IMG/VR virus record: IMGVR_UViG_3300010354_000545
Span: 1-26,258 of that record
Strand: one strand, 5' to 3'
DNA from: a virus
DNA length: 26,258 nt
Shown piece after piece: positions 1-26,258 of this stretch; within the stretch, counting starts at the first letter, position 1; each line of letters starts with the position of its first letter. The position numbers and the translations under genes are program-made. The notes under the pieces were generated by a model that was not told the origin of the DNA, did no database searches, and saw only the letters and a list, made by a program, of their open reading frames with translations.

Positions 1-109
1 CGACGAAGGATACGACCCGTGCGTCGTCATCGTCAGACTGCTCGGGCCGTACTCGCCACCCGTCGACGCACCCGACTACTCGGCATTCCGACCGGGACAC
101 CAAGGATGA
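1..109 (+). CDS. C-terminal end of an unidentified protein (5' end outside window)
   Basis: An open frame enters from the left edge (first full codon at base 2) and stops at TGA 107-109. The visible 35 residues are acidic and proline-rich (begins DEGYDPC, ends RPGHQG). The stop overlaps the ATG of the next small gene in an ATGA arrangement, the coupling seen throughout this region, which supports it as the real frame. No family could be recognised from this fragment. Confidence 0.5.
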   Translation, partial: DEGYDPCVVIVRLLGPYSPPVDAPDYSAFRPGHQG

Positions 110-192
110 TCCTCCTCCTCGCCTCCGCTGTCGCCCTCTCGACCATCTACGTCGCAATAGCGTCGTGGGTCGTGGGACGACACGACAAGTAA
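106..192 (+). CDS. 28-residue single-pass membrane peptide
   Basis: The ATG at 106 overlaps the upstream stop (ATGA), with AAGG just before it. The product is 28 residues: a hydrophobic stretch (about residues 2-23, starting MILLLASAVAL) followed by a short charged tail ending GRHDK. This fits a single N-terminal membrane anchor or a tiny membrane protein. Its function is unknown. It is short enough to be chance, but the overlap and the strongly hydrophobic composition favour a real gene. Confidence 0.45.
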   Translation: MILLLASAVALSTIYVAIASWVVGRHDK

Positions 193-218
193 CCCGACAC
201 CACAAGACAGGAGAGACA

Positions 219-686
219 GTGAACAAAGACATTCAGAAGAAGTGGGCAGATGCCCTGCGAAGTGGCAGATACAACAAGTGTCGAAACCACCTCGCTGTCT
301 GGGCACCAGCAACAGAAGAGAGGGCCTATTGCGCCCTAGGAGTTCTAGTCGAACTCGCAATCGCCGATGGCGTGCGGGTCGCGAGTCAATCGCCAGACGC
401 GGAAGAGTTCCCTGAGGACGAGGTCTTCGAGGGCATGCCACACAACGAGACGGACTGGTTCCTCGTCTACTACGACGGCATGACCTCGAGCCTGCCATCG
501 AACGTGATGAAGTGGGCCGGTCTCCACTACGAGGCACCAAGACTTACCGTCTCGCCCGACCACCACCCACATGTCGACAGACACCTAGTAGACGGGGACA
601 CGGTGTCCGTGACGTACTTGAACGACGATGCCAAGTTGTCGTTCGATGTTCTGGCCGACTTGATTGAAGCAGGCGAGGTCATCTGA
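219..686 (+). CDS. Conserved phage protein of unknown function (CALGVL-motif family)
   Basis: This is a 155-residue protein. I chose the GTG at 219 because AGGAG lies at 209-213 with good spacing; the frame is open further upstream but without a ribosome site. The N-terminal block WADALRSGRY followed by YCALGVLVEL, and the C-terminal block LNDDAKLSFDVLADLIEA, match the general pattern of small phage proteins with a WxxALRSGxY...CCLGVL arrangement and a LNDxxxxSFxxIADxIE tail. The role of that family is not known to me. Its stop TGA overlaps the next ATG, so the two are probably translationally coupled. Confidence 0.8.
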   Translation: MNKDIQKKWADALRSGRYNKCRNHLAVWAPATEERAYCALGVLVELAIADGVRVASQSPDAEEFPEDEVFEGMPHNETDWFLVYYDGMTSSLPSNVMKWAGLHYEAPRLTVSPDHHPHVDRHLVDGDTVSVTYLNDDAKLSFDVLADLIEAGEVI

Positions 687-1003
687 TGGCTGTCGATCGC
701 AACCTACTGACCAGCATCGTCGCCAGCCTGACAGAGCAAGAAGCCGTCACGCTCGCCCTCGACATTCGCAGACAGTTCAACTGGAACGTCACAATCTTCC
801 AGACAGAGGACATAGTCATGGCCTTCACAGACCGCTACGAACGCGAACCAACAGACGACGAACTCAACGACATCATGGCGACCTACTACTGGCGCAAGAT
901 GGAAGACCGTATGTGTGAAGAAGGGTTCGAGTGTATTGGCATGGCCATCGACGAACTCGGCATCGAAGAAGAACCCGACAACCAGACAGGAGAACAAGAA
1001 TGA
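686..1003 (+). CDS. Hypothetical acidic protein
   Basis: This is a 105-residue acidic, mostly helical-looking protein (starts MAVDRNLLTSIV, ends DNQTGEQE). Its ATG shares a base with the previous stop (TGATG). The last codons read through the ribosome-binding cassette of the next gene (CAGACAGGAGAAC), which explains the odd QTGEQE tail. No domain was recognised. It lies in a tightly overlapping run of small genes, probably early or accessory. Confidence 0.75.
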   Translation: MAVDRNLLTSIVASLTEQEAVTLALDIRRQFNWNVTIFQTEDIVMAFTDRYEREPTDDELNDIMATYYWRKMEDRMCEEGFECIGMAIDELGIEEEPDNQTGEQE

Positions 1004-1266
1004 ACCTCGCAGCCCAAGTACAAGAGTGGCGAACCGTCCCCTCGCCGCTGACCATTCAAGTGACAGCCTTGAAGGAGGTCGTCGACGAGGCCGGCAACAA
1101 GAAGACCACTACCGACTACGTCCTCAAGTATGAAGCACTTGCCTACGGCATCATCGAAGGCGAACTGTTCTACATGGCCACCAACGGACGGACATTCAAC
1201 GTCACGTACGGCGCTGTCTCGAACAACGGACTCCGCACTATCACAGTCTTCAAGGCTGAGTCATGA
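1000..1266 (+). CDS. Hypothetical small protein
   Basis: This is an 88-residue protein starting MNLAAQVQEW. The ATG at 1000 is preceded by AGACAGGAGA and overlaps the previous stop as ATGA; a longer reading from 931 would lack a ribosome site and is Arg-rich, so it was rejected. Alternating hydrophobic/polar segments (ELFYMATNG, TFNVTYG, RTITVFK) suggest a small beta-rich fold. Function unknown. Its stop overlaps the next start as ATGA. Confidence 0.75.
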   Translation: MNLAAQVQEWRTVPSPLTIQVTALKEVVDEAGNKKTTTDYVLKYEALAYGIIEGELFYMATNGRTFNVTYGAVSNNGLRTITVFKAES

Positions 1267-1775
1267 CTACAGACGATCTGCGAGACGAGAACCAGTTGAG
1301 TCTCTTCTCGGCCGGCGTTGCCATCGAGACACCTGTGCTGCCCTACGGTGGCACGTCCGGCTGGTCTGGTTCCGACACAAGCCTTGAGCGTGCTAGTCGA
1401 GCCGACAAGGACGGCACCACATCGGCCAGACAAGCCACCACTCTCAATGCCCTACTGAACGCTGGCGTGTCGGGCTTGACGTGGTCAGAGTTGGCCAGCA
1501 TCCTCAATGTTCATCACGGCGCAGCGTCGGGTGTCTTGTCGACACTTCACAAAGCAGGACACATCTGTCGACTCACGGAACGACGAAACAAGTCGCAGGT
1601 GTACGTCCTTCCCGCCTACGTCGCCGGCCGCGAGAAGGTGGCCTACAAACCGAACGTGTCAGCCCGACTCCTTGAGGACGTCCTGACTGAGGTGCTCAGT
1701 GACCTCGGCCGAGGGCAAGTCGAGACCGCTAAGGCACGCATCGCAGTCACACTTCAACACTTGAAGCCTGACTGA
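1263..1775 (+). CDS. Winged helix-turn-helix DNA-binding protein
   Basis: This is a 170-residue protein. The N-terminal part carries LPYGGTSGWSGS and a following Ser/Arg segment, a pattern I associate with actinophage regulatory proteins. Residues about 57-118 look like a winged helix-turn-helix: RQATTLNALLNAG, then LTWSELASILNV, then ASGVLSTLHKAGHI as recognition helix, then a wing with RNKSQVYVLP. A C-terminal helical segment follows. It probably binds DNA and regulates transcription or replication-associated steps; the target is unknown. The start ATG at 1263 overlaps the upstream stop. Confidence 0.8.
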   Translation: MTTDDLRDENQLSLFSAGVAIETPVLPYGGTSGWSGSDTSLERASRADKDGTTSARQATTLNALLNAGVSGLTWSELASILNVHHGAASGVLSTLHKAGHICRLTERRNKSQVYVLPAYVAGREKVAYKPNVSARLLEDVLTEVLSDLGRGQVETAKARIAVTLQHLKPD

Positions 1776-1814
1776 ACAAGATCCCGACAACAACAAACCA
1801 GACAGGAGACAACA

Positions 1815-2306: not shown

Positions 2307-2363
2307 AGGCTTGAGTCCGGTAGTCGAAACTGCTACCAAGGTACAACGACGCCGGCCTCGGCC

Positions 2364-2372
2364 TGCTAACCT
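2364..2372 (+). promoter_or_regulatory. Candidate extended -10 promoter for a leaderless gene at 2381
   Basis: TGC followed by TAACCT, with the start codon only 8 bases downstream. The transcript would start at or within 1-2 bases of the ATG. No ribosome site precedes the ATG, which fits leaderless translation. No convincing -35 was found at 17 bp. Confidence 0.4.
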
Positions 2373-2380
2373 CTCGACAC

Positions 2381-2611
2381 ATGGATACCGCTACCAAGAC
2401 CTTCCATCACTGGACGATCACCAGAGCCGACTCCAAGTCCGCAGCATGGCTCGTCGAACACACATGGACTGGACTCGACGTCAGCCGTGAAGCGTTCGCC
2501 TTCACCACCCTCGCAGCAGCCCGTCAACTCGTCGCCGGCAAGCGAGGACTCAAGCGCATCAGGTTCAACAAACTGAGCGACCGCCAGTACGACTACGACT
2601 ACACGTCCTAG
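2381..2611 (+). CDS. Hypothetical small basic protein
   Basis: This is a 76-residue protein (starts MDTATKTFHHWTITRA, ends YDYDYTS), Trp- and Arg-rich, with no domain I recognise. There is no ribosome site; a candidate -10 box lies 8 bases upstream, so it may be translated from a leaderless mRNA. It converges with the WhiB gene: the two genes share the palindrome CTAG, which supplies the TAG stop on both strands. Confidence 0.65.
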   Translation: MDTATKTFHHWTITRADSKSAAWLVEHTWTGLDVSREAFAFTTLAAARQLVAGKRGLKRIRFNKLSDRQYDYDYTS

Positions 2612-2904
2612 TCAAACAGCACCGGATCCAAAGGGTGAACAAGCCCTATCCGTCGATGACGCTTCACGTCGAACCTCTGCCGTTCCGTAAGGCCACCCCA
2701 CACACCCCAATGCTGGTTCTGCTCCAACGCATACTCGGCACACTCCCGACGCACAGGGCAACCCCCACACACCACTAACGCCTTCGTCGGACGATGCCCA
2801 GTCGACGGAAACCACAACGACTGATCCAACCCGACGCACGCACCATCAAACCGCCACTCACCGGGCGGTGGAGTATTGAACAGGGCAAGGTCATCGTCGC
2901 GCAC
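2608..2904 (-). CDS. whiB: WhiB-family iron-sulfur transcriptional regulator
   Basis: This is a 98-residue protein with the full WhiB signature. Four cysteines at C23, C46, C49 and C55 (CxxC then CxxxxxC) can ligate a 4Fe-4S cluster, and GVWGG at 67-71 is the WhiB turn motif, followed by a basic C-terminal segment (RQRFDVKRHRR). WhiB proteins are an actinobacterial family that binds the primary sigma factor and DNA, sensing redox state or nitric oxide. Phage copies are known to interfere with host WhiB control. The start is GTG 2904; an in-frame TAG lies upstream. There is no ribosome site, but TATGAT sits 9 bases upstream, so the mRNA may be nearly leaderless. It is transcribed against its neighbours and diverges from the lipoprotein at 3003. 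Confidence 0.93.
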   Translation of the reverse strand: MRDDDLALFNTPPPGEWRFDGACVGLDQSLWFPSTGHRPTKALVVCGGCPVRRECAEYALEQNQHWGVWGGLTERQRFDVKRHRRIGLVHPLDPVLFD

Positions 2905-2913
2905 GTTGAACTC

Positions 2914-3002: not shown

Positions 3003-3425
3003 ATGAAACGACTAGCGGCCACCGTCGCCCTCGCACTGTCGACGGCAGCCTGCTCGACGACCGTGTCGGCACCGACGTCTCTCGCACCACTCGAGACCAA
3101 CGGCGTTCCCAAGACCACCGACGCGCCGATAGCAACGCCGGCACCTGAGGTGACTATCAGCGAGTCGACTCGCAACGCCCTCTTCATCAACAACATCGAG
3201 GGCACCATCGGCACTCCTGTCTACGACGAGGCCGGCGCGATCGAGACCGGCTACATGATCTGTGATGTTCTTCGCACTGGCAGTGGGACACTCGAAGACG
3301 TCATGGACATCGTGCTGGCCAACTCGACGACAGACTCCGACCTGCTTCTACTGACTGCTGTTACGGCATCGGCGCTGACGAATCTGTGTCCCGACATGTC
3401 CTACATGATCGACGAGTTGCCGTGA
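3003..3425 (+). CDS. Secreted lipoprotein with DUF732-like domain
   Basis: This is a 140-residue protein. An N-terminal signal (MKRLAATVALALSTAAC) ends in a lipobox-like STAAC with lipidation site C17. A Ser/Thr/Pro linker (18-52) follows, then a compact helical domain (about 57-135) with FINNIEG, GYMICDVLRTG and a closing TASALTNLCPD. The paired cysteines, the G-x-x-x-C and the final A..LCP match the DUF732 pattern common in mycobacterial secreted proteins. It is expected on the outer face of the host membrane. The stop overlaps the next GTG. The transglycosylase lipoprotein at 22193-23011 carries a related domain, so this phage has two copies. Confidence 0.8.
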   Translation: MKRLAATVALALSTAACSTTVSAPTSLAPLETNGVPKTTDAPIATPAPEVTISESTRNALFINNIEGTIGTPVYDEAGAIETGYMICDVLRTGSGTLEDVMDIVLANSTTDSDLLLLTAVTASALTNLCPDMSYMIDELP

Positions 3426-4151: not shown

Positions 4152-4330
4152 TGTTGATACCGCCACCCGGCTCGGCCGAGGCACACTTGTATGGGTGCTC
4201 GTGTCCGATGGCCGAGAACAACTTCGGCATCAACAGCCCGATGCCCCCTGACGGTTGGTATCTCGACACCGACTGCTTCGTCCATCTACCGCCGGCCATG
4301 AACCCATTCGATGACTACGACGATGAGTGA
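4148..4330 (+). CDS. Small conserved phage protein with G-C-x-C-P motif
   Basis: This is a 60-residue protein overlapping the TerS stop by ATGA. It has GSAEAHLYGCSCPM near the N-terminus and WYLDTDCFVH after a Gly/Pro loop. The arrangement CxCP...W....C..H is shared by small phage proteins that I recognise as a recurring conserved unknown; the Cys/His set could bind a metal. Its stop overlaps the GTG start of the terminase large subunit. Function unknown. Confidence 0.7.
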   Translation: MMLIPPPGSAEAHLYGCSCPMAENNFGINSPMPPDGWYLDTDCFVHLPPAMNPFDDYDDE

Positions 4331-5670
4331 CAATGGCCGACGACCGCTCGATCGCTGAACACCTAGCCGCACTGCCAGAGGAAGAACGCCGCGCAATCAT
4401 TGAAGGGTTGTCGACCGAACAGCAGCAGGCAATGTTGTACGACTGGGCTGTATGGCGTCGACCCAAGCAGGCCACTCCAGACGGCGACTGGCGTAAGTGG
4501 CTCATCATGGCCGGTCGAGGCTTCGGCAAGACACGAACCGGCGCAGAGTTCATTCGGGAACAGGTCAACGCCGGCAACGCCAAGTTCATTGCGCTCGTAG
4601 GTGCGACAGCAGCAGACGTCCGCGACACCATGATCGAAGGACAGTCGGGCATCCTGTCAGTCTTCCCACCCGGTCAGCGACCCCAGTACGAGCCATCGAA
4701 GAGACGAGTGACCTTCCACAACGGTGCCGTCGCAACCGCCTACTCCGCTGACGAACCAGACCGACTACGTGGCCCAAACCACGACACGGCATGGGCAGAC
4801 GAGTTAGCGGCATGGCGATACGCCGACGCGTGGGACCAGTTGACGCTCGGTCTTCGTATCGGCAAGCACCCTCGTGTGGTCATCACGACCACGCCTCGAC
4901 CAGTCCCTGTCATCAAACAGTTGGTCGAGACAGAAGATGGAACCGTCATCGTCACTCGAGGCTCCACCTACGAGAACATCTCAAACCTTGCGCCGTCGTT
5001 CGTGAACGAGATGATGCGTCGCTACGAAGGCACCACGCTCGGTCGACAGGAACTTCACGCCGAAGTCCTCGACGACCTTGAAGGCGCACTCTGGCATCGC
5101 CTCGCCCTAGATGCCCTACGCATACACAAACCGCCGGCCATGAAACGCGTCGTCGTCGCCGTCGACCCGGCAGCCTCGAACAACTCGTCCAGCAACGAGA
5201 CAGGAATCGTCGTCGCCGGCATCGGCACAGATGGAGTCGGTTACGTCCTCGCAGACAAGACGATCAAGGGATCACCGAACGAGTGGGGTGTCGCGGCGCT
5301 GGCTGCCTACCACCAGTTCCAAGCAGACAGGATTGTCGCTGAGGCCAACCAAGGAGGCGACATGGTGGCCCACACACTCCGCACTGTCGACAAGAACGCC
5401 CCTGTCAAACTGGTGCGAGCGTCTCGAGGCAAGAGGACACGAGCCGAACCAGTCGCTGCCCTCTACGAGCAAGGTCGAGTCCACCACGTCGGCTTCCTCA
5501 CTCAACTCGAAGATCAGATGTGTGGCTGGGTCCCCGATGTAGGTTCGTCACCGGACAGAGTCGACGCATTGGTGTGGGCACTGACCGAACTAATGATCGA
5601 TGGGGCACGACAAGCACCCGCCGTCATTCCTGTAAGCCTTGTACAAGCATCACCGTGGAGTGTCTCATGA
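4327..5670 (+). CDS. terL: Terminase large subunit
   Basis: This is a 447-residue packaging motor. It has Walker A GRGFGKT at 63-69, Walker B in TAWADE (154-159), coupling motif TTTPRP (187-192), and an RNase H-like nuclease domain beginning VVVAVDPAA (D280) with further acidic residues in VAEAN (E339) and PDRVDALVWA (D410, D413). The ATPase pumps DNA into the prohead and the nuclease cuts concatemers. GTG 4327 overlaps the upstream stop as GTGA; ATG 4333 in the same frame is a close alternative. The length is normal for the shorter actinophage terminases. The stop overlaps the next gene as ATGA. Confidence 0.96.
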   Translation: MTMADDRSIAEHLAALPEEERRAIIEGLSTEQQQAMLYDWAVWRRPKQATPDGDWRKWLIMAGRGFGKTRTGAEFIREQVNAGNAKFIALVGATAADVRDTMIEGQSGILSVFPPGQRPQYEPSKRRVTFHNGAVATAYSADEPDRLRGPNHDTAWADELAAWRYADAWDQLTLGLRIGKHPRVVITTTPRPVPVIKQLVETEDGTVIVTRGSTYENISNLAPSFVNEMMRRYEGTTLGRQELHAEVLDDLEGALWHRLALDALRIHKPPAMKRVVVAVDPAASNNSSSNETGIVVAGIGTDGVGYVLADKTIKGSPNEWGVAALAAYHQFQADRIVAEANQGGDMVAHTLRTVDKNAPVKLVRASRGKRTRAEPVAALYEQGRVHHVGFLTQLEDQMCGWVPDVGSSPDRVDALVWALTELMIDGARQAPAVIPVSLVQASPWSVS

Positions 5671-6449
5671 AAGAGTGGCCAGCAAGACTCCTAACACAGA
5701 ACGCTGAACTCAAGAAGGCAGGCGTCTGGAACTGGTCACTTCCAGCCCACGTCATACAACTCTCAGACGGTCGACGCTTCAACGTATGCCCTCATGCCGG
5801 CGCGTGCGGCCGAGTGTGTTACGCCAAGTTCGGCACCTACCAGTTCTCGAACGTCAAGGCGCGCCACCTCTTGAACCTCGAATACGTCCTAGAAGCACCC
5901 GACGAGTGGCAGGCCAAGATGGAAGCCGAAGTCCATCACAAACGGTTCAACCCCAGCGGCCGGCGTCACCTGTTGCCCTACGACCGCACCGACATGTGGC
6001 TGTCGAAGTGGATCACATTCGGTGGGGCTGCCGTCCGAGTCCACGATGGCGGTGACTTCTTCTCTGACGACTACATCGACAGGTGGTCGACTATCGCAGA
6101 CAGGGCACCACACGTCCTCTTCTACGCCTACACCAAAGAGGTCTCGGCCTTCAAGGGTCGCCAACTACCCCGTAACTTCAGGGTCATCTTCAGTCTCGGT
6201 GGGACACAGGACTCTCTCATCGACAAGGAGACAGACAGGCACGCCGACGTCTTCCCAACTCTTCAAGCCCTGAACGACGCCGGCTACTACGACCAGACAG
6301 CGAACGACCTTCTTGCGATCGTGGCCCCCTTCAACAAGATCGGCATCGTCGCAAACAACCTGCCCGTCGCAAACAAACGCTTCGACGGTCGAACAATGTC
6401 GGGCATGAGACCGACCGACAACACAATCGAGACCAGCACCAACGAGTAG
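5667..6449 (+). CDS. GP88-family protein
   Basis: This is a 260-residue protein whose ATG 5667 overlaps the TerL stop; a longer in-frame extension reads through TerL and is Arg/Cys-rich noise. LLTQNAELKKAGVWNWSLPA, then CPHAGACGRVCYAKFGTY (C41, C47, C51), FSNVKARHLLNLEYVL, RVHDGGDFFSDDY (124-136) and FYAYTKEVS match the conserved blocks of the mycobacteriophage gene-88 family as I recall it. The CX5CX3C cluster with a nearby HDxGDFF suggests a metal or iron-sulfur site, but the biochemical role is not established. It is unusual to find it between terminase and portal. Confidence 0.85.
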   Translation: MKEWPARLLTQNAELKKAGVWNWSLPAHVIQLSDGRRFNVCPHAGACGRVCYAKFGTYQFSNVKARHLLNLEYVLEAPDEWQAKMEAEVHHKRFNPSGRRHLLPYDRTDMWLSKWITFGGAAVRVHDGGDFFSDDYIDRWSTIADRAPHVLFYAYTKEVSAFKGRQLPRNFRVIFSLGGTQDSLIDKETDRHADVFPTLQALNDAGYYDQTANDLLAIVAPFNKIGIVANNLPVANKRFDGRTMSGMRPTDNTIETSTNE

Positions 6450-6463: not shown

Positions 6464-6469
6464 TACTAT
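6464..6469 (+). promoter_or_regulatory. Weak candidate -10 box before the portal gene
   Basis: TACTAT overlaps the portal ATG at 6468 and lies 7 bases before an in-frame GTG (6477, portal codon 4). If active it would give a leaderless message starting at the GTG. It is identical to the -10 candidate at 17503-17508, but may be chance. Confidence 0.2.
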
Positions 6470-7616
6470 GGCCACCGTGACCGACATCAACCAATCTCAA
6501 ACAAGCCGTGTCGCGAAGGTCAAGCCATCGTCGACCGACTTCATGGAGGTTGGCTCGACAGGTCTGAACCAGACGGCCGGCATCGTCAACGATGACTTCC
6601 TGCGACAACTCCAAGGTAAGCAGGCGTACGCCAACTACCGCGAGATGGCAGACAACGACCCTGTCGTCGGCGCAATGCTCCATGCCATTGAGATGATCGT
6701 TCGCTCCGTCGACTGGTCGGTCGAACCCAGTAACCGTGACGACCCTCGAGCCATCGAAGAGGCACAGTTCATCTCCACGTGTATCAACGACATGAGCACA
6801 TCGTGGGACGACACACTCGCCTCTATCCTCACGTTCCTCGTCTACGGCTTCTCCTATCACGAGATCGTCTACAAGTACCGCAACGGCTACACCGACGACG
6901 CGGCCACCCGCTCGAAGTACAACGACGGTCGAGTCGGTTGGCGCAAGTTGCCCATCAGAGCGCAGGACACAGTTCAGCGTTGGGACATGGACGACAACGG
7001 CGGCATCCGTGGCATGTATCAGATGGACCCACACGCGCCCGACAAGGGACTCGTGTACCTGCCCATCGAGAAGTGTCTCCTCTTCCGCACGACAACGAAG
7101 ATGAACAACCCGCAAGGCCGGTCGATTCTTCGCAACGCTTTCGTGCCGTGGTACTACAAACGTCGCATCCAAGAGATCGAGGCCATCGGAATCGAACGCG
7201 ACCTCGCCGGCATGCCCGTCGCGTACGTGCCACCGCAACTCCTCTCGAACAACGCTTCTGCCGACGAACGGGCTGCCCTCAGCGCCATCAAACAGATCGT
7301 GCGAAACATCAAGCGGGACGAACAAGAGGGCATCGTGTTCCCGTTGGCCTACGACCCCGACACCAAACTCCCTGCGTACGACTTGAAACTCCTGTCGACA
7401 GGTGGCCGGCGTCAGTTCGACACAAACCAGATTGTCACTCGTTACGACCAACGAATCACGATGACAGTGCTCGCAGACTTCCTGCTGCTTGGTCACGAGG
7501 GCATCGGAACACAAGCCTTGTCGGTGTCGAAGATTGAACTCTTCCTCACGTCACTGAACGCCTACCTCAGCAACATCAGTGAGACCTTAACAGTTACGCG
7601 ATTCCTCGACTCATGA
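6468..7616 (+). CDS. Portal protein, N-terminal 382 residues (frame interrupted)
   Basis: The portal forms the dodecameric ring at the capsid vertex. Typical portal segments are present: MADNDPVVGAMLHAIEMIVRS with the following VDWSVEP, FVYGFSYHEIVYK-like helices, and RYDQRITMTVLADFLLLGHE near the end. The frame ends at TGA 7614-7616 after a poor tail (TVTRFLDS). Reading the -1 frame from about 7589 instead gives LNSYAIPRLMRLNG, which fits the expected portal continuation and joins the next entry. One missing A in the run at 7589-7590 would restore a 447-residue portal (6468-7810). ATG 6468 has GAGG upstream. Confidence 0.9.
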   Translation: MATVTDINQSQTSRVAKVKPSSTDFMEVGSTGLNQTAGIVNDDFLRQLQGKQAYANYREMADNDPVVGAMLHAIEMIVRSVDWSVEPSNRDDPRAIEEAQFISTCINDMSTSWDDTLASILTFLVYGFSYHEIVYKYRNGYTDDAATRSKYNDGRVGWRKLPIRAQDTVQRWDMDDNGGIRGMYQMDPHAPDKGLVYLPIEKCLLFRTTTKMNNPQGRSILRNAFVPWYYKRRIQEIEAIGIERDLAGMPVAYVPPQLLSNNASADERAALSAIKQIVRNIKRDEQEGIVFPLAYDPDTKLPAYDLKLLSTGGRRQFDTNQIVTRYDQRITMTVLADFLLLGHEGIGTQALSVSKIELFLTSLNAYLSNISETLTVTRFLDS

Positions 7617-7811: not shown

Positions 7812-10295
7812 ATGACCTTCGTCGCCGGCCTCGGCAGGCGCCAGAAGTCGATCGCAGTCAGCAAGGCTCGGAGACCACTTCCCAAGCCGCCGACGTTCCG
7901 ACCAACTGGCGACACACGCCTCACCAACCTCGAACGAGAACTCGCTGCCGTAGTCGAACAAGGCTTCGACAGAGTGCCCACCAACGCCTTCCTTGCGCTG
8001 GTGGCAGACAGCAACGACGAGTCCTACAGGCGTGCCGTCGACGAAGCACTCGGCTCGGTACAAGACGCCATCGCCGAAGTACTACACAGACAACTGGTCG
8101 CGACAGGTAAGCAGGCCACCAGTGAACTGAAGACTGAACTCGCCTCCCTCTTTCGACAGATGTACAAGGCTGAGAAGCCCACAATCCATCAGGTCGTCGC
8201 AAACTTCGCCTTCAACGTCGACAGCCAAGATGCCCTCGACTACGCACGACGAGAGGCGGCCACCCTCGTGACCAACATGGGCACTGAGCAGGTCTCGGCC
8301 ATGCGTGACCTAGTCGCAACGTCTCGAGCCACCAACCAGACACGCCGGCAGACATCGAACGCCTTACGAGGACTACTCGAACAGGTGTCGCCGGGTAGTG
8401 ACGCTGGCCGGCTTGTGGCGTCGACTGTCGGTGCCAACGTGAACGGTCTGACAGTGAGGGCAGAACGAGCAGTCCTCAACCATGCGAACAGAGAGGCAGC
8501 CCGACTCGCTGACTCCGGCATCACTGGCCGGAAGGCACTCAAAGAAGTGAAGGACTCCACCAACGCCTACGCACGTCGACTACGACAGTCCAGAAGTAGA
8601 ACGATCGCACGGACAGAGATTGTGCGGGCAGCCGAAGCGGGCAGGCAGGAGTCGTGGAACCAAGCAGCGAAGCAAGGTCTCATCGACCCGAAGGTGGCCA
8701 CGAAGACATGGAGCACTGGTCCGTACGACGTCTGCCCTATCTGTCGAGGATTACAAGCCACCTCGGTTCCTGTGAAGGGCAGTTGGCCCAACGGCATCAA
8801 GCACCCACCGGCACACCCCAACTGTCGTTGTACGATGGTCCTCAATACTTACCCGCCGGCCACTCCACCGCAGGCAGTCGGCTCGGGAACAGTCGACGAC
8901 CCCTACCGAATCGTTCACGATGATGACATTCCAAACCTCGACGACTACCCGCCGTTGACTGGCACAGAGGTCGAGGTGCCCGACCTCAGTGGACCGAGGG
9001 CAACAGGGGCGAAGCCGGCACCAGCGCAGCCCAAGAAACCAACGAAGCCGAAGCCGGCCACTCCAAGCACAGGCACTGGCATCGGCGACAAGGTTCCGTT
9101 CGATGACCTCAGGTCAAGGATTGACAACATCTCTGATGACGTCGACACGATAGGCGTGCGACTGGTCGACGAAACCAAGGTGAAGACTGTCGGCTACGAA
9201 GCCACTGTCACCAAAGAAGGCGAGGAAGTCCTCGACATCGTGGAGGAGGCTGGCCGGCGAATCGAGGCTCGAGCCGACGAGATACTTCGCGCTGGTGGTC
9301 ACAAGACGATGGACGAGGCAGCAGCCACCTACGACGAGGCAGCCGAACGACTACGTAAGGCTCAGAGTGATTACGCCTCGCATACGTTCGATGAGTTCCA
9401 AGACCTCGCAGCGTCGAAGGGGCTTCCGATGACACCAGAGGAGATTGCCCTCGGCCCTGACGTTGGCAGGCTTCAATACGCCGAACGCATCTCCAAGATG
9501 CCCAACGCACAAGTTCGTGCGAAGTTGAACTTGAAGGCTGGGACGTCGACGACGCCCAACACCATCCTCGACAACATCATGAAGGGCGGGAAGCAGACAG
9601 CCGAGAAGAAGCGTCTCAAGGGGCTTGTCGATGCCGCACGAGATGGTCTCGAGGCCACTACGAAGGAACTAGCAGGGCAGGCGAAGCCACAAGCCAGCGC
9701 CGTTCGTCAAGCATTGAAAGATGTTCGCGAGGACTTCGGTGAAGGAGTGCTCGAGTTGGAGAAGCGGGCCAACGAGTCGCCCTATGTGAAACGTCGACTC
9801 GATGACGCCATGAAGCAGACTCAGGAGTCGATGCCTAAGTCGTGGGTCGAGGCGATCAACGAGGGTGGCGTCAAGATTGAGGGCACACCGGGACGGCCCG
9901 TATTCCGTCGATCGACCAATACTGTTCATGTAAGCCTTCACGACGACATGGTGGCCACGACACTCCATGAAGTGACCCACGTAGCAGAAACATCGACGTC
10001 ACGAGTCGCTCAAGTGAATGAAGCGTTCTACCTACGACAGACACGAGGCCAGCGTGCTCGTGCCCTCTACGGCGTCGAAGGAGAACCGGGTGCCGAGTTG
10101 GTCATCGACGACGACTTCGGCGACGCCTACGCCGGCAAGTGGTACGGCCAAGGTAGAGACATGCCACTCGAGGGCAACTTCGAGACACTCACAAGAGGCA
10201 TGGAGTCACTGTTCGGACGAGACCTCATGGGCAATCCGTTCTTCATTAGGGGCGCATACAGGAGGCACGTCCTCGGCGTGTTAGCGTTGCTGTAA
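7812..10295 (+). CDS. MuF-type head morphogenesis protein with C-terminal zincin-like domain
   Basis: This is an 827-residue protein. The N-terminal helical region (1-260) is followed by the MuF domain (about 263-345): RTIARTEIVRAAEAG, CPICRGL (C308, C311) and HPNCRC (C338, C340), a probable zinc site. A Pro/Lys-rich linker (360-430) and coiled-coil-like stretch (450-690) follow. The C-terminus (about 690-827) has TLHEVTHVAE with HExxH at 719-723, then FYLRQTRG, DAYAGKWYG and FETLTRGMESL, ending RRHVLGVLALL, the pattern of metallopeptidase-like domains fused to MuF proteins. MuF proteins sit in the prohead near the portal and may be injected, so the enzyme part could act in maturation or in the host. 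Confidence 0.88.
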   Translation: MTFVAGLGRRQKSIAVSKARRPLPKPPTFRPTGDTRLTNLERELAAVVEQGFDRVPTNAFLALVADSNDESYRRAVDEALGSVQDAIAEVLHRQLVATGKQATSELKTELASLFRQMYKAEKPTIHQVVANFAFNVDSQDALDYARREAATLVTNMGTEQVSAMRDLVATSRATNQTRRQTSNALRGLLEQVSPGSDAGRLVASTVGANVNGLTVRAERAVLNHANREAARLADSGITGRKALKEVKDSTNAYARRLRQSRSRTIARTEIVRAAEAGRQESWNQAAKQGLIDPKVATKTWSTGPYDVCPICRGLQATSVPVKGSWPNGIKHPPAHPNCRCTMVLNTYPPATPPQAVGSGTVDDPYRIVHDDDIPNLDDYPPLTGTEVEVPDLSGPRATGAKPAPAQPKKPTKPKPATPSTGTGIGDKVPFDDLRSRIDNISDDVDTIGVRLVDETKVKTVGYEATVTKEGEEVLDIVEEAGRRIEARADEILRAGGHKTMDEAAATYDEAAERLRKAQSDYASHTFDEFQDLAASKGLPMTPEEIALGPDVGRLQYAERISKMPNAQVRAKLNLKAGTSTTPNTILDNIMKGGKQTAEKKRLKGLVDAARDGLEATTKELAGQAKPQASAVRQALKDVREDFGEGVLELEKRANESPYVKRRLDDAMKQTQESMPKSWVEAINEGGVKIEGTPGRPVFRRSTNTVHVSLHDDMVATTLHEVTHVAETSTSRVAQVNEAFYLRQTRGQRARALYGVEGEPGAELVIDDDFGDAYAGKWYGQGRDMPLEGNFETLTRGMESLFGRDLMGNPFFIRGAYRRHVLGVLALL

Positions 10296-10628: not shown

Positions 10629-12197
10629 GTGGTCGCCGTACCTTCGTTCGTCTCCCGTAACGCCCGACGTGGCTTGAAACTGCTCGAGTTCGCAGGCGAC
10701 GGACTGAAGCCGGCAACCGTTCGAGAAGCACGACAGATGGCAGCCGGCTCTATCAGTGTCGACAAGGTACGACGTATGGCAGCGTGGCTGGCCAGACATA
10801 AGGTCGATCTGGAGTCACCTGACGCCGATGCCTACCTCGACGGCACAAAGGACAGACCAACACCCGGACAGGTGGCGTGGCTCTTGTGGGGCGGCGACAT
10901 CGAACGAGCAAGGCAAGACCGCGCCGGCCGTTGGGCCAGCAAGAAACGTGATGAACTGATCGCATCAGGCGAACTGTCGAAGGAGTTGAACATGGACAAG
11001 ATGTACGGCCGAGAGATGAAGGACGACGACGAAGAAGGTGGCGAGTACGGCCCTGAGTACGACCCGCTCCAGTCACTCTTCAACGCTTACATGGCAGCCG
11101 TTCGTATGGGGCCATCTGCCGAAGCCCTCTTGAAACCCATCTTGTCGATCGTCGACAAACTGCGTCCCATGTATGGCCCAACCGAGGCCGGCGAAGAACC
11201 AATGGAAGAGATGATGTCTCGACCAATGATGAAGGGGCATGGTGACTACACCAACCCGCTTCAGTGTCTCCTTCACACCTACCTAGGACTCCTGTGGTAT
11301 CCAGAACGCTCCGACCTTCGAGCGTTAGTCATGGACCTCATTCATCAGGCAGAAGGCATCGTCTATCCTTCTGGTGATGAGACGACTAGCGAAGATGGCA
11401 TGGAAGGCAACATGGGTAACCGCGACGTCATGGCTCGTGCTGACGATCGCACTGAGCGGACTCCTGTTCAGAGAGTTATCAGGGAAGAGAACGGACAGTG
11501 GTGCGTCTACAGCGAGGCCACCGGCCGCTCGTTCGGGTGCTACACGAACAGGACAGCGGCACAAGAACGCCTCGACCAGATCGAACGATTCAGCAGCGCC
11601 CGGTTGGTATCGGCCACGCTGAAAGAGTTGGTGGAGTGGCACGAGGACTGTCACCGTTCAGTCGACGTAACGCCGGCCACCAAACTCCTCCACGACCTCA
11701 TCGAGGACACGATGGAGTCTCGAGGCCACGCTCGGCCCTACGACATCACCTTCGACGACAAGATCGACATGCTCGTCAACAAGAACGTGTCGGTCATCTC
11801 TAAGGCCGACGAGCAGCGATACACCCTCGGACCTTGGTACGTGCCCAACATGGAGGACGCGCACGGCGAGTTCACTGACGAGGACACCCTCCAGCGTTCA
11901 CTGTGGGACTGGGTTCGTGCCGGCGACCGCACCATCTACCTCCAGCACAGTGACAAGCCGGCAGGCGAGATGGTCGAGATCATGACCATTCCATTCCCGA
12001 TCGAGGCTGCCCTCTCAGTACCGAATCAGGGCACCACGAAGTATGCGTTCCCTGCGAACACTCCTTTCATGGGGACTGTCTGGGAGCCGTGGGCATGGGA
12101 GTTGGTCAAGGCCGGCAAGTTGCGCGGCTACTCCATTGGTGGCAAGGCGCGACGAATGGAAGCCGACCTTCCTGAGATGGCCACCATCGTCGTGTGA
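10629..12197 (+). CDS. Multidomain capsid maturation protease (XkdF-like)
   Basis: This is a 522-residue protein. Residues 9-95 (RNARRGLKLLEF ... VRRMAAWLARHK ... PGQVAWLLWGGD) form a helical domain commonly fused to phage proteases. The middle is acidic and Met-rich, and RVIREENGQWCVYSEATG to ERLDQIERF (about 285-320) is a small beta domain also seen in such fusions. The C-terminal domain (about 390-515) is XkdF-like: TLGPWYVPNMEDAHGE, YLQHSD with H440, and GYSIGGKA with S502, a plausible His/Ser catalytic pair. It probably cleaves scaffold and capsid during maturation. GTG 10629 is the start; no ribosome site exists, so translation may be leaderless. Confidence 0.85.
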   Translation: MVAVPSFVSRNARRGLKLLEFAGDGLKPATVREARQMAAGSISVDKVRRMAAWLARHKVDLESPDADAYLDGTKDRPTPGQVAWLLWGGDIERARQDRAGRWASKKRDELIASGELSKELNMDKMYGREMKDDDEEGGEYGPEYDPLQSLFNAYMAAVRMGPSAEALLKPILSIVDKLRPMYGPTEAGEEPMEEMMSRPMMKGHGDYTNPLQCLLHTYLGLLWYPERSDLRALVMDLIHQAEGIVYPSGDETTSEDGMEGNMGNRDVMARADDRTERTPVQRVIREENGQWCVYSEATGRSFGCYTNRTAAQERLDQIERFSSARLVSATLKELVEWHEDCHRSVDVTPATKLLHDLIEDTMESRGHARPYDITFDDKIDMLVNKNVSVISKADEQRYTLGPWYVPNMEDAHGEFTDEDTLQRSLWDWVRAGDRTIYLQHSDKPAGEMVEIMTIPFPIEAALSVPNQGTTKYAFPANTPFMGTVWEPWAWELVKAGKLRGYSIGGKARRMEADLPEMATIVV

Positions 12198-18160: not shown

Positions 18161-18547
18161 ATGGCCTACGAAGGCGCACAGATCAAGATGGGCAACCTGA
18201 CCGCCGCGTCGGACCTGTCGGCCAAGCAGTACTACTTCGTCAAGTTGGCTTCGGCCACCACTGTCGACGTGTGTACCGCCATCACCGACAAGCCGATCGG
18301 TGTTCTTCAGAACACCCCCACCGCCGGACAGAGCGCAGAGATCTGCATCTTCGGCATCACCAAGGTCTCCGCTGATGGCAACCTGACCGCAGGAAACCTC
18401 ATCGGCACCTCGAGTGACTCACAAGCCGATGCCATCACCGCTGGAACGGACACCACCGTGTACGTCATGGGTCAGGCAATCGAGGCCGGCGCTGCTGGCC
18501 AGACCGTCACCATGTTCCTCAATCCGAGCAACTCTCGGGCCGCCTGA
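18161..18547 (+). CDS. Head decoration (DUF2190-like) protein
   Basis: This is a 128-residue Ala/Gly/Thr-rich protein starting MAYEGAQIKMGNLTA two bases after the scaffold stop. KQYYFVKLASATTVDVCTA, KPIGVLQNTPTAGQSAEICI and GNLIGTSSDSQADAI are typical of small capsid cement or decoration proteins. It probably binds the outer capsid surface and stabilises it after expansion. Codon use is strongly biased to C-ending codons, as in the major capsid gene. Confidence 0.8.
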   Translation: MAYEGAQIKMGNLTAASDLSAKQYYFVKLASATTVDVCTAITDKPIGVLQNTPTAGQSAEICIFGITKVSADGNLTAGNLIGTSSDSQADAITAGTDTTVYVMGQAIEAGAAGQTVTMFLNPSNSRAA

Positions 18548-18567: not shown

Positions 18568-19518
18568 ATGCCCCAGCCCACCCAGTCACAGGTCCATGTT
18601 GATGCGATCTTGACGAACATGTCGCTCGCCTTCATGCAGGAGGCAGACTCGTTCGTCGCAAGCAAGGTGTTCCCCACGGTCACCGTCAACAAGCAGAGCG
18701 ACAAGTACTTCACGTACTCGCAGGCCGACTTCTATCGCGATCAGGCTCAGACTCGTGCCGATGGCACCGAGTCGGCCGGTTCTGGCTACGGACTCAGCAC
18801 CGACACCTACTCGTCGAGCGTGTGGGCACTCCACAAGGACATCGGCGATCAGGTTCGTGCGAACAGCGACTCGCCGCTCGACCCCGACATGGATGCCACC
18901 CGCTTCCTCACCCACCAGATGATGATCCGTCAGGAGCGCGACTGGGCGTCGAACTACTTCACCACCTCGACGTGGGGAACCGACTCGACTCCTTCGACCC
19001 TGTGGGACGCTTCTGGCTCCGACCCGATCGGTGACATCCAGACCGGCATCAACACCATCCTGTCGAACACCGGCTACCTCGCTAACACCCTCGTGTTGTC
19101 GTACGCGGCCTACAAGACTCTCCGTAACCACTCGGACTTCGTCGACCGCTACAAGTACACGAGCGCCGACTCCATCACGCCCGAACTCATCGGCAAGGTT
19201 CTCGACCTTCCGCGAGTGATGGTCATGAAGGGCGTCTACAACTCGGCTGCCGAGAACGCGTCTGCCTCCTACGGACAGATCGGCGACAAGGATGCCCTCC
19301 TGTGCTACGTGGCCCCGTCTGCCGGTCTCATGACCGCTTCGGCCGGCTACAACTTCGTGTGGAACGGAGTCGGTGGCGCACTCGGCACCTCGGTCGCTGT
19401 GAGCCGGTTCCGCATGGACCACCTCCGTGCCGACCGCCTCGAGATCGAGTCGGCGTGGGACTTCAAGGTCGTCTCGTCCGCACTCGGCTACTTCTTCAGC
19501 AACCCCGTCTCGGCCTGA
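18568..19518 (+). CDS. Major capsid protein
   Basis: This is a 316-residue protein preceded by AAGGAGAACA. It has no membrane or enzyme motifs. Segments such as ASKVFPTVTVNKQSDKYF, QMMIRQERDWASNYFTT, LVLSYAAYKTLRNHSDFVDR and a C-terminal WDFKVVSSALGYFFSNPV resemble HK97-fold capsid proteins. It follows scaffold and decoration genes and shows the strongest codon bias in the window (TAC, AAC, ATC, CTC, GTC), as expected for the most abundant virion protein. Confidence 0.88.
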   Translation: MPQPTQSQVHVDAILTNMSLAFMQEADSFVASKVFPTVTVNKQSDKYFTYSQADFYRDQAQTRADGTESAGSGYGLSTDTYSSSVWALHKDIGDQVRANSDSPLDPDMDATRFLTHQMMIRQERDWASNYFTTSTWGTDSTPSTLWDASGSDPIGDIQTGINTILSNTGYLANTLVLSYAAYKTLRNHSDFVDRYKYTSADSITPELIGKVLDLPRVMVMKGVYNSAAENASASYGQIGDKDALLCYVAPSAGLMTASAGYNFVWNGVGGALGTSVAVSRFRMDHLRADRLEIESAWDFKVVSSALGYFFSNPVSA

Positions 19519-22040: not shown

Positions 22041-22201
22041 TGGCCGACCCGTACGCCGAAACACGGCTAGTCCCAGAGGTCGATAGGTCAACGAGGACAA
22101 GTGTTCGCTGCGGGAACTGCGCCAAGTTGCTCGCCGAGGTCGTGACAGCGCCGTGGCGTATCAGATGCCCTCGTTGTAAGGAGAACAACTCGTCAGGATG
22201 A
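22040..22201 (+). CDS. Com-like zinc-ribbon protein
   Basis: This is a 53-residue protein whose ATG shares a base with the previous stop (TGATG). VRCGNCAKLLAEV then WRIRCPRCKENNSSG gives two CxxC knuckles (four cysteines) around a short beta segment, the layout of phage Mu Com, a zinc-binding RNA-binding translational activator of mom. No mom-like gene is visible in this window. It overlaps the convergent lipoprotein gene by nine bases. Confidence 0.8.
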   Translation: MADPYAETRLVPEVDRSTRTSVRCGNCAKLLAEVVTAPWRIRCPRCKENNSSG

Positions 22202-23011
22202 CGGGCAGGAGTTCGACGACCGCCACGGACGACAGCCCGACGAGCGGTACAACATCAGTGCGAACGTCAGGTTCTTTCGAGGGTCGAACATGTCGTCAGG
22301 GTGGTTCCAGCCCATGTCGGACAGCCACTTGCGATGGATCTGGTTGATCTGTGACAGACCGGCATCGGCCCCGTTCCATGCGTCAGACTGGCAACGTGAT
22401 TCGCGGAACAGAACGCCACTCAGCCACGGCCACTCCTCCTCAGTCCAGCCCACCTCGAGGGCAAGGTCGTGCCACTCGCCGCACTTGCCGTGGAAGGCTC
22501 GAGCCGCATCGACCGAGGCTTGACGGGCTGCCTCTTCCTCTGCTGCTTGTATCTCGGCCAGCCCATCCCAGTCGACTGTGCTGAGGTCAATCTCGGCCGG
22601 CAATAGTCCTATGTGTTCGTCGCAGAGATAGGTCAGGGCACTTGCGACGATTGCCCGTTCGAGGATGGCTCGAGCCTCAGACTCGGCACCTTCCGCGATG
22701 GTCTCGAGCATGATGTCGTAAGACATGCCGCCGTTGGCAGCCTCGCAGTAGGCGTAGCCCTGAGTGTGGAGTTCGTCGGTGGAGATGACGTCGACGTATC
22801 GACCGTAGGTCATGACGACTTCATTCTCGAAGGCGATCTCATTGTTGATCTGATTGGGGTCTGTCGTGGTGGTCACCAAGGGTGCCGGCGTGGTGGAGGT
22901 CGTGTCCAACAATGGGTTTGTGGAAGCCACTTGAGAGTCGATGCCCCCACCACACCCGGCGATTAGTGACAACGCAGCGACGAATAGTGCGCGTCGTTTC
23001 ATGACGGTCAT
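22193..23011 (-). CDS. Lipoprotein lytic transglycosylase (SLT) with DUF732-like domain
   Basis: This is a 272-residue protein. The signal peptide (MTVMKRRALFVAALSLIAGC) has lipobox IAGC, with C20 lipidated. A Thr/Pro linker (30-55) is followed by a DUF732-like helical domain (about 56-135: TQGYAYCEA, VASALTYLCDE). After a helical stretch, the C-terminal third (about 180-260) is an SLT lysozyme-like domain: LSGVLFRESRCQSDAWN with catalytic E204, GADAGLSQINQIH, and FDPRKNLTFALMLYRSSGC. It is expected to cleave peptidoglycan from the outer face of the membrane. ATG 23011 has ACAGGAG 7 bases upstream. Confidence 0.88.
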   Translation of the reverse strand: MTVMKRRALFVAALSLIAGCGGGIDSQVASTNPLLDTTSTTPAPLVTTTTDPNQINNEIAFENEVVMTYGRYVDVISTDELHTQGYAYCEAANGGMSYDIMLETIAEGAESEARAILERAIVASALTYLCDEHIGLLPAEIDLSTVDWDGLAEIQAAEEEAARQASVDAARAFHGKCGEWHDLALEVGWTEEEWPWLSGVLFRESRCQSDAWNGADAGLSQINQIHRKWLSDMGWNHPDDMFDPRKNLTFALMLYRSSGCRPWRSSNSCPSS

Positions 23012-23470: not shown

Positions 23471-23475
23471 GTTTG

Positions 23476-23545: not shown

Positions 23546-23791
23546 ATGGCGTTCACGAACTGGAGTGAGATGCGTTACAAGGTGACGGGAGGCTCGGAGG
23601 GCACGGCTGGAATCGAAGTCGCTGACAAGCGATACGAACCCGGCGACGAGGTCGAACTGACGCCAGCGAAGGCTGCGTGGTTACTGGAACAGGGCTATCT
23701 CGAGCCGGCCGATGCCAGCAAGGCGAACGCGAGCAAGAAGGTCGTCGAAGAAGAGACGGCACCGGCGATTGAAGATGGAGAGGTGGCCTGA
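23546..23791 (+). CDS. Small acidic phage structural protein
   Basis: This is an 81-residue protein. MRYKVTGGSEGTAGIEVADK, then RYEPGDEVELTPAKAAWLLEQGYLEPA, is a small beta motif frequent in phage proteins near head-tail and tail genes; the Lys/Glu tail is disordered. ATG 23546 lacks a strong ribosome site. Its stop overlaps the first tail-tube gene (TGATG). Confidence 0.7.
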   Translation: MAFTNWSEMRYKVTGGSEGTAGIEVADKRYEPGDEVELTPAKAAWLLEQGYLEPADASKANASKKVVEEETAPAIEDGEVA

Positions 23792-24546
23792 TGCCCACAT
23801 TCGCTCATGGCAAGGGAACCAACGTGTTCGTCGACGTGTACAACCTGTCGACCTTCTTCAACAACGCGGACACAACTCAGTCTGTCGACACCGCCGAAAC
23901 GACCAGTTTCACGGCGTCTTCCAAGTCTTACATAGTTGGTCTCAAGGACCAGACTGTCAGTCTGTCCGGCCTGTACTCGCAGGACGCCGGGGGCAGCGAC
24001 GTCGTCCTCTCAAGCATTCTGGGTACGGCCACCACGCCGATCGTTACCATCTCGCTGACAGGAAGCGGAATCGGCAACAGAGCAGTCCTCGGCAGGGCAC
24101 ACGAAACGAACTACTCGATCAGTAGTCCCGTAGCCGACGTCACCTCAGTCACCGCAGACTTCACAGCATCGACTGATGCCGTCGCCAACCAGACTCTCGG
24201 ACTTGCCTCTGGCGTCATGCTGACCGCAGGTGGCTCGATCGCCTACGGCTCACTCGGAAACCTCACCGCGGTCGATAACGCTGCCTCGTCGACCAACGGA
24301 GGCATGGCCACCCTTCATGTCACCGCCAACTCGATCAGCGGTGGCAACACGACCATCAAGGTTCAACACTCAGCAGACAACTCGACTTGGGTGGACCTCA
24401 TCACCTTCACAGCCGTGTCGGCATCGACCACGGCGAAACAACTCACAGCAGTCTCTGGCACCATCAACCGCTATGTACGCGCAACAGCGTCCACTGCCGG
24501 CTCGTCAGGGAGCATCACTTACAACGTCGCAATAGCCCGATTCTGA
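23791..24546 (+). CDS. Tail tube protein with C-terminal Ig-like extension
   Basis: This is a 251-residue protein. The N-terminal 140 residues (MPTFAHGKGTNVFVDVYNLS, DTAETTSFTASSKSYIVGL, ETNYSISSPVADVTSVTADF) form a tail-tube fold closely related to the next gene. The C-terminal part (about 145-251; MATLHVTANSISGGNTTIKV, VQHSADNSTWVDLITF, INRYVRATAS) resembles the extra surface domain attached to many siphovirus tail-tube subunits. It probably polymerises around the tape measure. Confidence 0.85.
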   Translation: MPTFAHGKGTNVFVDVYNLSTFFNNADTTQSVDTAETTSFTASSKSYIVGLKDQTVSLSGLYSQDAGGSDVVLSSILGTATTPIVTISLTGSGIGNRAVLGRAHETNYSISSPVADVTSVTADFTASTDAVANQTLGLASGVMLTAGGSIAYGSLGNLTAVDNAASSTNGGMATLHVTANSISGGNTTIKVQHSADNSTWVDLITFTAVSASTTAKQLTAVSGTINRYVRATASTAGSSGSITYNVAIARF

Positions 24547-24562
24547 CCAAGGAGAACAAACC

Positions 24563-24973
24563 ATGCCCACTTTCGTTCACGGCAAGTCCACCGACTTCGC
24601 ACTCGATGACACCGGCGGTACGTCACGCAACCTCAGCAACGTCCTCACCAGCGTCGACTTCCCCGAGACCATCGACACCGCTGAGACCACCGCTTTCGGG
24701 TCGACTGCCAAGTCATACATCGTCGGTCTGACCGACTCCACACTCTCGATCTCGGGCATCTGGGACGCCACTGTCGACGGCTACATCGCCGGCGGTGCCG
24801 AGCCGGCATCTCGCTCGTTCATCTACGGCCCTGCCGGTTCGACGGCTGGCAACGTGAAGTACACCGGCGAGGCCATCGTCACCAGTTACTCAATCTCGAA
24901 CCCCGTCGGAGACGTCGTGACGTTCTCGCTGGACCTTCAGGTCACCGGCTCCATCACGCGTGGCACCTACTGA
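24563..24973 (+). CDS. Second tail tube protein paralog
   Basis: This is a 136-residue protein with AAGGAGAACAAACC before the ATG. It shares MPTFVHGKSTDF, DTAETTAFGSTAKSYIVGL and YSISNPVGDVVTFSLDL with the preceding gene but lacks its C-terminal domain. It is therefore a duplicated tail-tube subunit, either an alternative tube component or a specialised ring. Confidence 0.85.
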   Translation: MPTFVHGKSTDFALDDTGGTSRNLSNVLTSVDFPETIDTAETTAFGSTAKSYIVGLTDSTLSISGIWDATVDGYIAGGAEPASRSFIYGPAGSTAGNVKYTGEAIVTSYSISNPVGDVVTFSLDLQVTGSITRGTY

Positions 24974-25001
24974 TCCACCAACAAACAAAGGAGTGACCAA
25001 C

Positions 25002-25418
25002 GTGTCCTTGAAGAACAAGATCAGGTCCGCAAAGGACATCGAACACCAACTCATCGACGTGCCCGAATGGGACGTCACGATCGAGATTCGTTCGATGACT
25101 GTCCGACAGAGGGCGGCCTTCCTTGCGGCCAACCAAGACAACTCCGAAGATGGCCCGAAGCGCATCGAAGCCGTCTACGGTCAGATTCTCGTCACGTGCT
25201 GTATCGACCCCGAGACCGGAGACCCCGTGTTCGATGAGGACGATCTGGCATGGCTCATGACTGAGAAGTCGGGCAGTGTCATCGACAAACTTGTCACGCA
25301 GTGTCTCGAGGCTTCGGGGCTGAAAGAGAAGGCGGTCGACGAGGCGGGAAAGTCCTCCTCGGGTTCGCCGACAGACACGGGCGAACCCACGGCGAACGAC
25401 GCGCCTACTTCCAACTAG
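25002..25418 (+). CDS. Tail assembly chaperone G
   Basis: This is a 138-residue protein. GTG 25002 follows AAGGAG; a longer frame from 24960 lies in the upstream stop region. VPEWDVTIEIRSMTVRQRAA and the cysteine-containing CCIDPETGDPVFDEDDL fit gpG-like tail chaperones that load the tape measure. The product ends at TAG 25416-25418 unless ribosomes shift at 25346-25352. Confidence 0.88.
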   Translation: MSLKNKIRSAKDIEHQLIDVPEWDVTIEIRSMTVRQRAAFLAANQDNSEDGPKRIEAVYGQILVTCCIDPETGDPVFDEDDLAWLMTEKSGSVIDKLVTQCLEASGLKEKAVDEAGKSSSGSPTDTGEPTANDAPTSN

Positions 25419-25558
25419 CGCGTGAACTTGGCATGACGGTCGGACAGTTGATGGACACGATGAGTAGTTCAGAGTTCATTGAGTGGCTGGCCTTGTACAA
25501 GATCGAGGCAAGCGAGCGGGAACAGCAAGCGCAACGACAGAGGGCTAAGAAGAGGTAA
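25002..25558 (+). CDS. Tail assembly chaperone GT fusion (-1 frameshift product)
   Basis: Decoding to 25352, then a -1 shift, gives 117 residues of G followed by 68 residues of the T part (VLLGFADRHGR, RAYFQLARELGMTVGQLMD, SSSEFIEWLALYKIE, basic tail), about 185 residues in total. LARELGMTVxQLxD and the F.EW...Y block are typical of the T part. The minor GT product recruits the tail-tube subunit around the tape measure. The T frame has an ATG at 25301 but no ribosome site, so independent start is unlikely. Confidence 0.92.
25346..25388 (+). other. -1 ribosomal frameshift signal (slippery heptamer plus stem)
   Basis: GGGAAAG at 25346-25352 is placed as G GGA AAG in the G frame, the same heptamer used by lambda G/T. 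After an 8-base spacer a perfect 9-bp stem follows (25361-25369, GGGTTCGCC, with 25380-25388, GGCGAACCC) and a 10-base loop. Confidence 0.93.
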
Positions 25559-25560
25559 CG

Positions 25561-26258
25561 GTGGCCGGCGTAGAAGTAGGACGCCTCGAGGTAGTCCTCG
25601 GCGTCGATACGAAACCACTAACGACTGGAGTCGATAAGGCGCAGAAGGCCGTATCGGAACTGGGCAAAGAAGTCTCTGCTGTCGGTCGTAATGCCTCTGG
25701 TGACTTCGACAAACTGCTGGACGCAGTACGTGATCTAACCCGTTCTGTCGACCGTGGTACGACAACGATGTCGTCAGGCTTCGCCGACGTCCGAGGTGCC
25801 GTACGTCAACTCGATTCGTCACTTGCTAAGGCAGAGAAAGAGGTCAAGGACCTCGACGCTGCTAGCAAGAGGGCCGGCGGTTCGATGACCGACTTGGCAT
25901 CAAAGATGACCGCTGTCGGCACAAAGATGTCACTTGCCGTGACCGCACCAATGGTGGCCACCGGTGTAGCCGCGATACGTACAGCCAACCAGTTCGAGTT
26001 CTCGATGGCCTCGATCACTGGTTTGGTCGGTGTCGCTGCCGAAGAGGTCAAGGCAATGGAAGGCGACGTTCGCTCGATGGCCGTCGAGTTTGGTCGATCT
26101 GCCCCTGAGGCTGCGGACGCGTTGTACTTCGTGACGTCTGCCGGCATCACAGGTGCCGATGCCATGAACGTTCTTGAGTCTTCACTCAAGGCAGCATCGG
26201 TCGGTCTGGGCGAGACAATGGTCATCGCAGACACAGTGTCATCGGCACTCAACGCTTA
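25561..26258 (+). CDS. Tape measure protein, N-terminal part (runs off window)
   Basis: An open frame from GTG 25561, 2 bases after the T-frame stop, runs to the window edge. It begins MAGVEVGRLEVVLGVDT, then has a helical, coiled region (KAQKAVSELGKEVS, LAKAEKEVKDLDAAS) and MASITGLVGVAAEEVKAMEG followed by APEAADALYFVTSAGITGAD, the phage minor-tail/tape-measure pattern. It sets tail length and is placed exactly after the G/T chaperones. About 232 residues are visible; the rest is outside. Confidence 0.93.
   Translation, partial: MAGVEVGRLEVVLGVDTKPLTTGVDKAQKAVSELGKEVSAVGRNASGDFDKLLDAVRDLTRSVDRGTTTMSSGFADVRGAVRQLDSSLAKAEKEVKDLDAASKRAGGSMTDLASKMTAVGTKMSLAVTAPMVATGVAAIRTANQFEFSMASITGLVGVAAEEVKAMEGDVRSMAVEFGRSAPEAADALYFVTSAGITGADAMNVLESSLKAASVGLGETMVIADTVSSALNA

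Follow-up and report, generated by a model that had tools for sequence, protein, structure and literature searches.

Shedding restriction sites is a long-established and common way for phages to counter restriction. Site loss that is complete or nearly so is reported for roughly one in ten prokaryotic viruses, almost exclusively at orthodox type II sites and in the main in non-temperate phages (PMC6286503). We analysed a DNA stretch of 26,258 bases (the window; GC 58.6% by exact count) from IMG/VR virus record IMGVR_UViG_3300010354_000545, in which the words AGCT and CCWGG (CCAGG/CCTGG) are absent and TGCA is nearly so. Very probably, the pattern arose because several distinct type II restriction-modification systems in uncultured actinobacterial hosts drove the removal of these sites. 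The strategy is a known one, the phage group is new, and the loss here is unusually complete.

Exact counting agrees with an initial annotation of the window, which had noted that AGCT is absent, that TGCA occurs only twice, that roughly 100 copies of each would be expected by composition (we compute 95 each for AGCT, TGCA, TCGA and ACGT), that TCGA appears about once per 60-base line (0.86 per 60 bases) and that ACGT is common. Word counts are given below as seen/expected, with the expectation taken from a Markov model. Under the maximal-order model, which is here second-order, AGCT stands at 0/50 and TGCA at 2/84-89. A scan of 4- to 6-mers revealed CCWGG (0/45) as a third absent word that the initial annotation had missed. 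The features concerned are as follows.

1..26258, no strand: whole contig; AGCT 0, CCWGG 0, TGCA 2, A/T runs of at most 4 bases
18344..18347, no strand: remaining TGCA, located in the gene that directly precedes the major capsid gene
18635..18638, no strand: remaining TGCA, close to where the major capsid gene begins

Words of equal composition are close to expectation (TCGA 375/355, ACGT 146/150, CATG 142/170, GTAC 103/127, and GATC likewise). The abundance of TCGA is set by its trinucleotides, so this word serves fairly as a control for composition and carries no signal of its own. As a codon control we shuffled synonymous codons 300 times, keeping every protein and the codon usage. The shuffled genes contain AGCT 75.5 ± 6.4 times (lowest shuffle 60; z = -11.7) and TGCA 48.2 ± 6.0 times (lowest shuffle 32; z = -7.7), and 67 copies of CCWGG are expected where none is seen. 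The claim that composition cannot account for the loss therefore stands under both Markov and codon-shuffled expectations: the absence does not follow from protein content, codon usage or base composition. About 860 single synonymous changes in the window genes would create AGCT, TGCA or CCWGG, and the absence of these sites thus has to be maintained. There are also weaker hints of further avoided six-base words in the window (GRGCYC 0/14, CCATGG 1/14, ATYRAT 1/16).

We collected relatives by capsid and terminase searches of IMG/VR, which gave 57 and 80 loci, and counted words in 132 family contigs. Obvious duplicates were left out by hand and some near-copies remain, so that the figures refer to contigs and not to independent lineages. 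AGCT is missing from 82 contigs (3/2525 over 882 kb), present at normal frequency in 44 and partly depleted in only 4; 39 contigs lack TGCA and 68 lack CCWGG (6/1220). Other relatives have lost GCWGC, CGCG, TCGA, CCGG, GGCC, CATG, ACGT, GGWCC, CTCGAG and more. Differing sets of short restriction-type sites are missing in more than 100 relatives of the window. This all-or-none loss spans relatives with a GC content of 48-67%, many metagenomes and contigs of up to 55 kb. Near-complete relatives are purged over their whole length, with AGCT at 0/230 in G001 (52 kb), 0/189 in G005 and 0/178 in G013, the last of which also has CCWGG at 0/135. One relative, L025 (9470 bases), has lost at least seven tetramer palindromes together (CCGG 0/41, AGCT 0/40, TCGA 0/33, TGCA 0/32, CATG 0/31, ACGT 0/31 and CGCG 1/33, with GATC at 4/42).

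The individual words come and go separately. AGCT is lost but TGCA kept in 37 contigs, the reverse holds in two (L055 and L105), and G011 has 400 copies of AGCT yet CCWGG at 0/83. Seven of the eight possible combinations of presence and absence of AGCT, TGCA and CCWGG occur; the one not seen among the 132 contigs is loss of TGCA and CCWGG with AGCT kept. Loss and retention of TGCA and CCWGG among relatives do not track those of AGCT. In L003, whose capsid protein is 94% identical to that of the window, CCWGG stands at 38/42 versus 0/45 in the window; where 17 CCWGG sites of L003 align with the window, the window sequence departs from each by 1-3 bases. A quick terminase tree (81 rows, with many weakly supported forks, so that the numbers are indicative) requires a minimum number of changes of 5 for AGCT, 7 for TGCA, 11 for CCWGG, 5 for GCWGC and 7 for CGCG. 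The set of avoided words varies among relatives and is not fixed by phylogeny.

The initial annotation had ascribed the two palindromes to either two systems or one degenerate specificity. The former proposal fits better, as the palindromes are lost separately in relatives. As for the latter, a single WGCW specificity would also remove AGCA/TGCT, which is 1.3-fold over-represented, and we rejected it. Because CCWGG is gone besides AGCT and TGCA, at least three systems are implied.

A phage nuclease that cuts AGCT and other words in host DNA or in competing phages, with the phage genome kept site-free to spare itself, could leave the same footprint. Such a cause would suit the largely clade-conserved loss of AGCT on the terminase tree, and the gene could be hidden in the missing half of the genome. 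However, the 16 gene clusters that are present in all five of the longest AGCT-free genomes (G001, G005, G009, G010 and G013) are, 16 of 16, also present in all three AGCT-bearing genomes tested. No cluster sets the AGCT-free genomes apart, and therefore no shared gene explains the loss, at the blastp level at which the clusters were made and which very diverged genes may escape. This outcome speaks against the nuclease alternative offered in the initial annotation. Moreover, the word sets differ by relative, so that each would need its own set of nucleases, and no nuclease domain was recognised among the scanned window proteins. Searching with WhiB for further viruses whose hosts are related, we found that most unrelated WhiB-bearing viruses have normal word counts. 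The apparently unrelated virus L343, which has in common with the family only WhiB and a weak Mu F-like match, is nevertheless without AGCT (0/19), and L329, which shares a few small genes with the family, has AGCT at 0/34 and CGCG at 0/48. These two loci, and two only, fit a cause that resides in the host and affects more than a single virus lineage. Taken together, we regard a self-sparing nuclease as improbable.

No PF00145 match is present in the window, and a Pfam scan of window proteins recognised no methyltransferase domain among those covered. Some relatives carry PF01555 or PF00145 genes. Adjacent pairs of C5-methyltransferase matches occur at G011:C1:12862-14282 and G039:C1:9241-10712, both in AGCT-normal relatives, and might shield sites whose loss was forced on other relatives.

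The host was approached through the gene content of the window, which comprises the head and tail module of a tailed phage (terminase, portal, Mu F-like protein, XkdF-like protease, capsid, tail and tape measure). The virus record is classed as linear and the window is thus probably a fragment, a 26-kb piece with about half of the phage genome missing from the record. The features are listed below.

2608..2904, minus strand: WhiB-family regulator (Pfam PF02467, E 6.9e-20); actinobacterial host marker
3003..3425, plus strand: DUF732 lipoprotein-like gene (Pfam PF05305, E 6.4e-7); second actinobacterial host hint
4327..5670 (called start 4333), plus strand: terminase large subunit (PHROG 979, Pfam Terminase_6N/6C); family marker used for the tree
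5667..6449, plus strand: GP88-like protein (Pfam PF17338, E 1.4e-41)
6468..7616, plus strand: portal protein (PHROG 113, Pfam Portal_Mu)
7812..10295, plus strand: Mu F-like head morphogenesis protein
10629..12197, plus strand: XkdF-like (S78_2) head protease (Pfam PF14550)
18568..19518, plus strand: major capsid protein (PHROG 1005, E 1.7e-87); family marker with 57 IMG/VR relatives
22193..23011, minus strand: SLT transglycosylase lipoprotein, a cell-wall enzyme (Pfam PF01464)
23791..24546, plus strand: major tail protein (PHROG 9522, E 3.3e-51)
25561..26256, plus strand: tape measure protein, start only, cut by the contig end (Pfam PF10145)

Judged from these genes, the host of the window phage is most likely an actinobacterium, because the window carries WhiB and DUF732 genes. 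WhiB is present in 30 of 49 records of the window family, and among 14 control genomes it is matched in Corynebacterium alone. The closest cultured relatives of the window capsid include Arthrobacter phages, at 44-49% identity. The nearest relatives of the terminase are more mixed than those of the capsid, and the host assignment therefore rests mainly on WhiB. An early guess from the word pattern, a haloarchaeal origin, was dropped once the actinobacterial markers had been found. The DUF732 gene used as a probe for other viruses gave no match, and no near DNA-level match to the window was found among 50,697 phage records. The tape measure start clusters with a 1499-amino-acid protein of G001. 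Positions 15618-16763 encode a secreted-looking protein with a long Thr/Ser-rich linker (TTTTT...LP repeats) that recalls some actinobacterial surface proteins. No integrase was recognised among the scanned window proteins, about half of the genome being absent from the record. The lifestyle of this tailed phage is putatively of the lytic type.

Under restriction by several type II systems of such hosts, every unmodified site would carry a risk of cutting at phage entry. Site-losing mutants, arising mostly through synonymous changes, would be favoured until nothing cuttable remained, and newly arising sites would be removed as they appear. The enzymes would be of the AluI, HpyCH4V/CviRI and EcoRII types, to which we presumptively match AGCT, TGCA and CCWGG, respectively. 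Restriction pressure, already proposed in the initial annotation, is the reading best supported by the counts, the controls and the on/off pattern among relatives. Several points nonetheless weigh against it. That the lost words are restriction sites is presumed from known enzyme specificities. Neither the host nor a cognate enzyme has been identified, so that the cause is one that we infer. Naming the host through proviruses had to be dropped: the capsid query has no relative among 84,980 species genomes, and the terminase query mainly matches distant terminases of alphaproteobacterial and other genomes, which probably belong to gene-transfer agents. Finally, the loss of AGCT is strongly clade-conserved, the tree requiring only about 5 changes, and a cause carried within the lineage would suit this as well. 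If several restriction systems are indeed responsible, the set of missing words would be a bar code of the systems met in never-cultured hosts. The single-site switching in this group would then allow the restriction repertoires and host switches of uncultured actinobacteria to be inferred from viral contigs alone.

The pressure could instead come from another sequence-recognising host defence, such as a restriction glycosylase or a phosphorothioation-type or type I/III-like system, in place of orthodox type II enzymes. The cause is read from the sites alone, and some words lost in relatives are non-palindromic (for example CATCC, CCCGC, CTCTTC and CTGAAG). However, the strongest losses are of short or W/S-degenerate palindromes, which are typical of type II systems, and a survey covering known pairs of viruses and hosts detected no avoidance of type I/IIG sites and very little of type III sites (PMC6286503); we consider such a defence quite improbable. 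That composition, codon usage, mutation bias or an assembly effect made the absence is highly improbable in view of the codon-shuffled z-scores, the near-expected words of equal composition and the all-or-none pattern across relatives, even though the window does show a strong compositional oddity in the form of a ceiling on A/T runs.

This ceiling is not well explained by restriction. A/T runs of 5 or more bases are wholly missing from the window, whereas 54.5 ± 5.8 occur in codon-shuffled genes and 70 in a dinucleotide simulation; of the phage and bacterial loci compared, the window is the lowest. AAAA, AATT, ATAT, TATA and TAAA are at zero and TTAA occurs once; the remaining 4-base A/T runs are of the AATA, ATAA and ATTA types, with the one TTAA and one AAAT. 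AATT, ATAT, TATA and TTAA had been considered as four additional restriction sites in the window. Here, however, they are depleted alongside AAAA, AAAT and TAAA, and as runs of 5 or more bases are nil they are more aptly assigned to the A/T-run ceiling. The restriction reading does hold in G010 and its kin (L034), where TTAA is normal and AATT and ATAT are lost. The closest relative of the window, L002 (85% DNA identity), likewise lacks A/T runs of 5 or more bases over 4.7 kb, whereas L003 has 11 in 12.5 kb. The family shows a milder A/T-run depletion, and bacterial loci are near 1.0. The lineage might keep its genome free of such runs to escape an A/T-run-binding host protein, for example an Lsr2-type xenogeneic silencer, although we hold this to be doubtful. 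Lsr2-type silencers favour long A/T stretches (CgpS, PMC7002338); no Lsr2 gene was found in 20 phage records. Silencer escape, if true, would extend sequence avoidance beyond nucleases to a silencer.

A literature search for phages free of AluI sites found no paper. Two further loci have depletions of their own: Actinomycetia phage DSL-LC01 (L260, first 50 kb) has ATAT at 0/51 and TTAA at 0/44 with normal AGCT, TGCA and CCWGG, and a bacterial 21-kb contig of an Anaerolineae metagenome-assembled genome (L189) is strongly depleted of one palindrome, GGCC (5/177). Among cultured phages, the Arthrobacter phages Shrooms (Laroyevirus) and Ottawa, whose capsid proteins are 44-49% identical to that of the window, resemble it in that CCWGG is nearly gone (1/139 and 0/133), but unlike the window they are not purged of AGCT (127/115 and 208/233) or TGCA. 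Roseobacter phage CRP-6, with a terminase 46% identical to that of the window, likewise has CCWGG at 1/68, whereas its AGCT count is normal (272/282) and its host is alphaproteobacterial. The window shares with the phages described by Rusinov et al. 2018 (PMC6286503) the near-disappearance of short, mostly palindromic words from a double-stranded DNA tailed phage, to far below Markov expectation and independently of coding. It differs from them in that the phages are uncultured and in that a whole family carries varied all-or-none combinations of lost sites.

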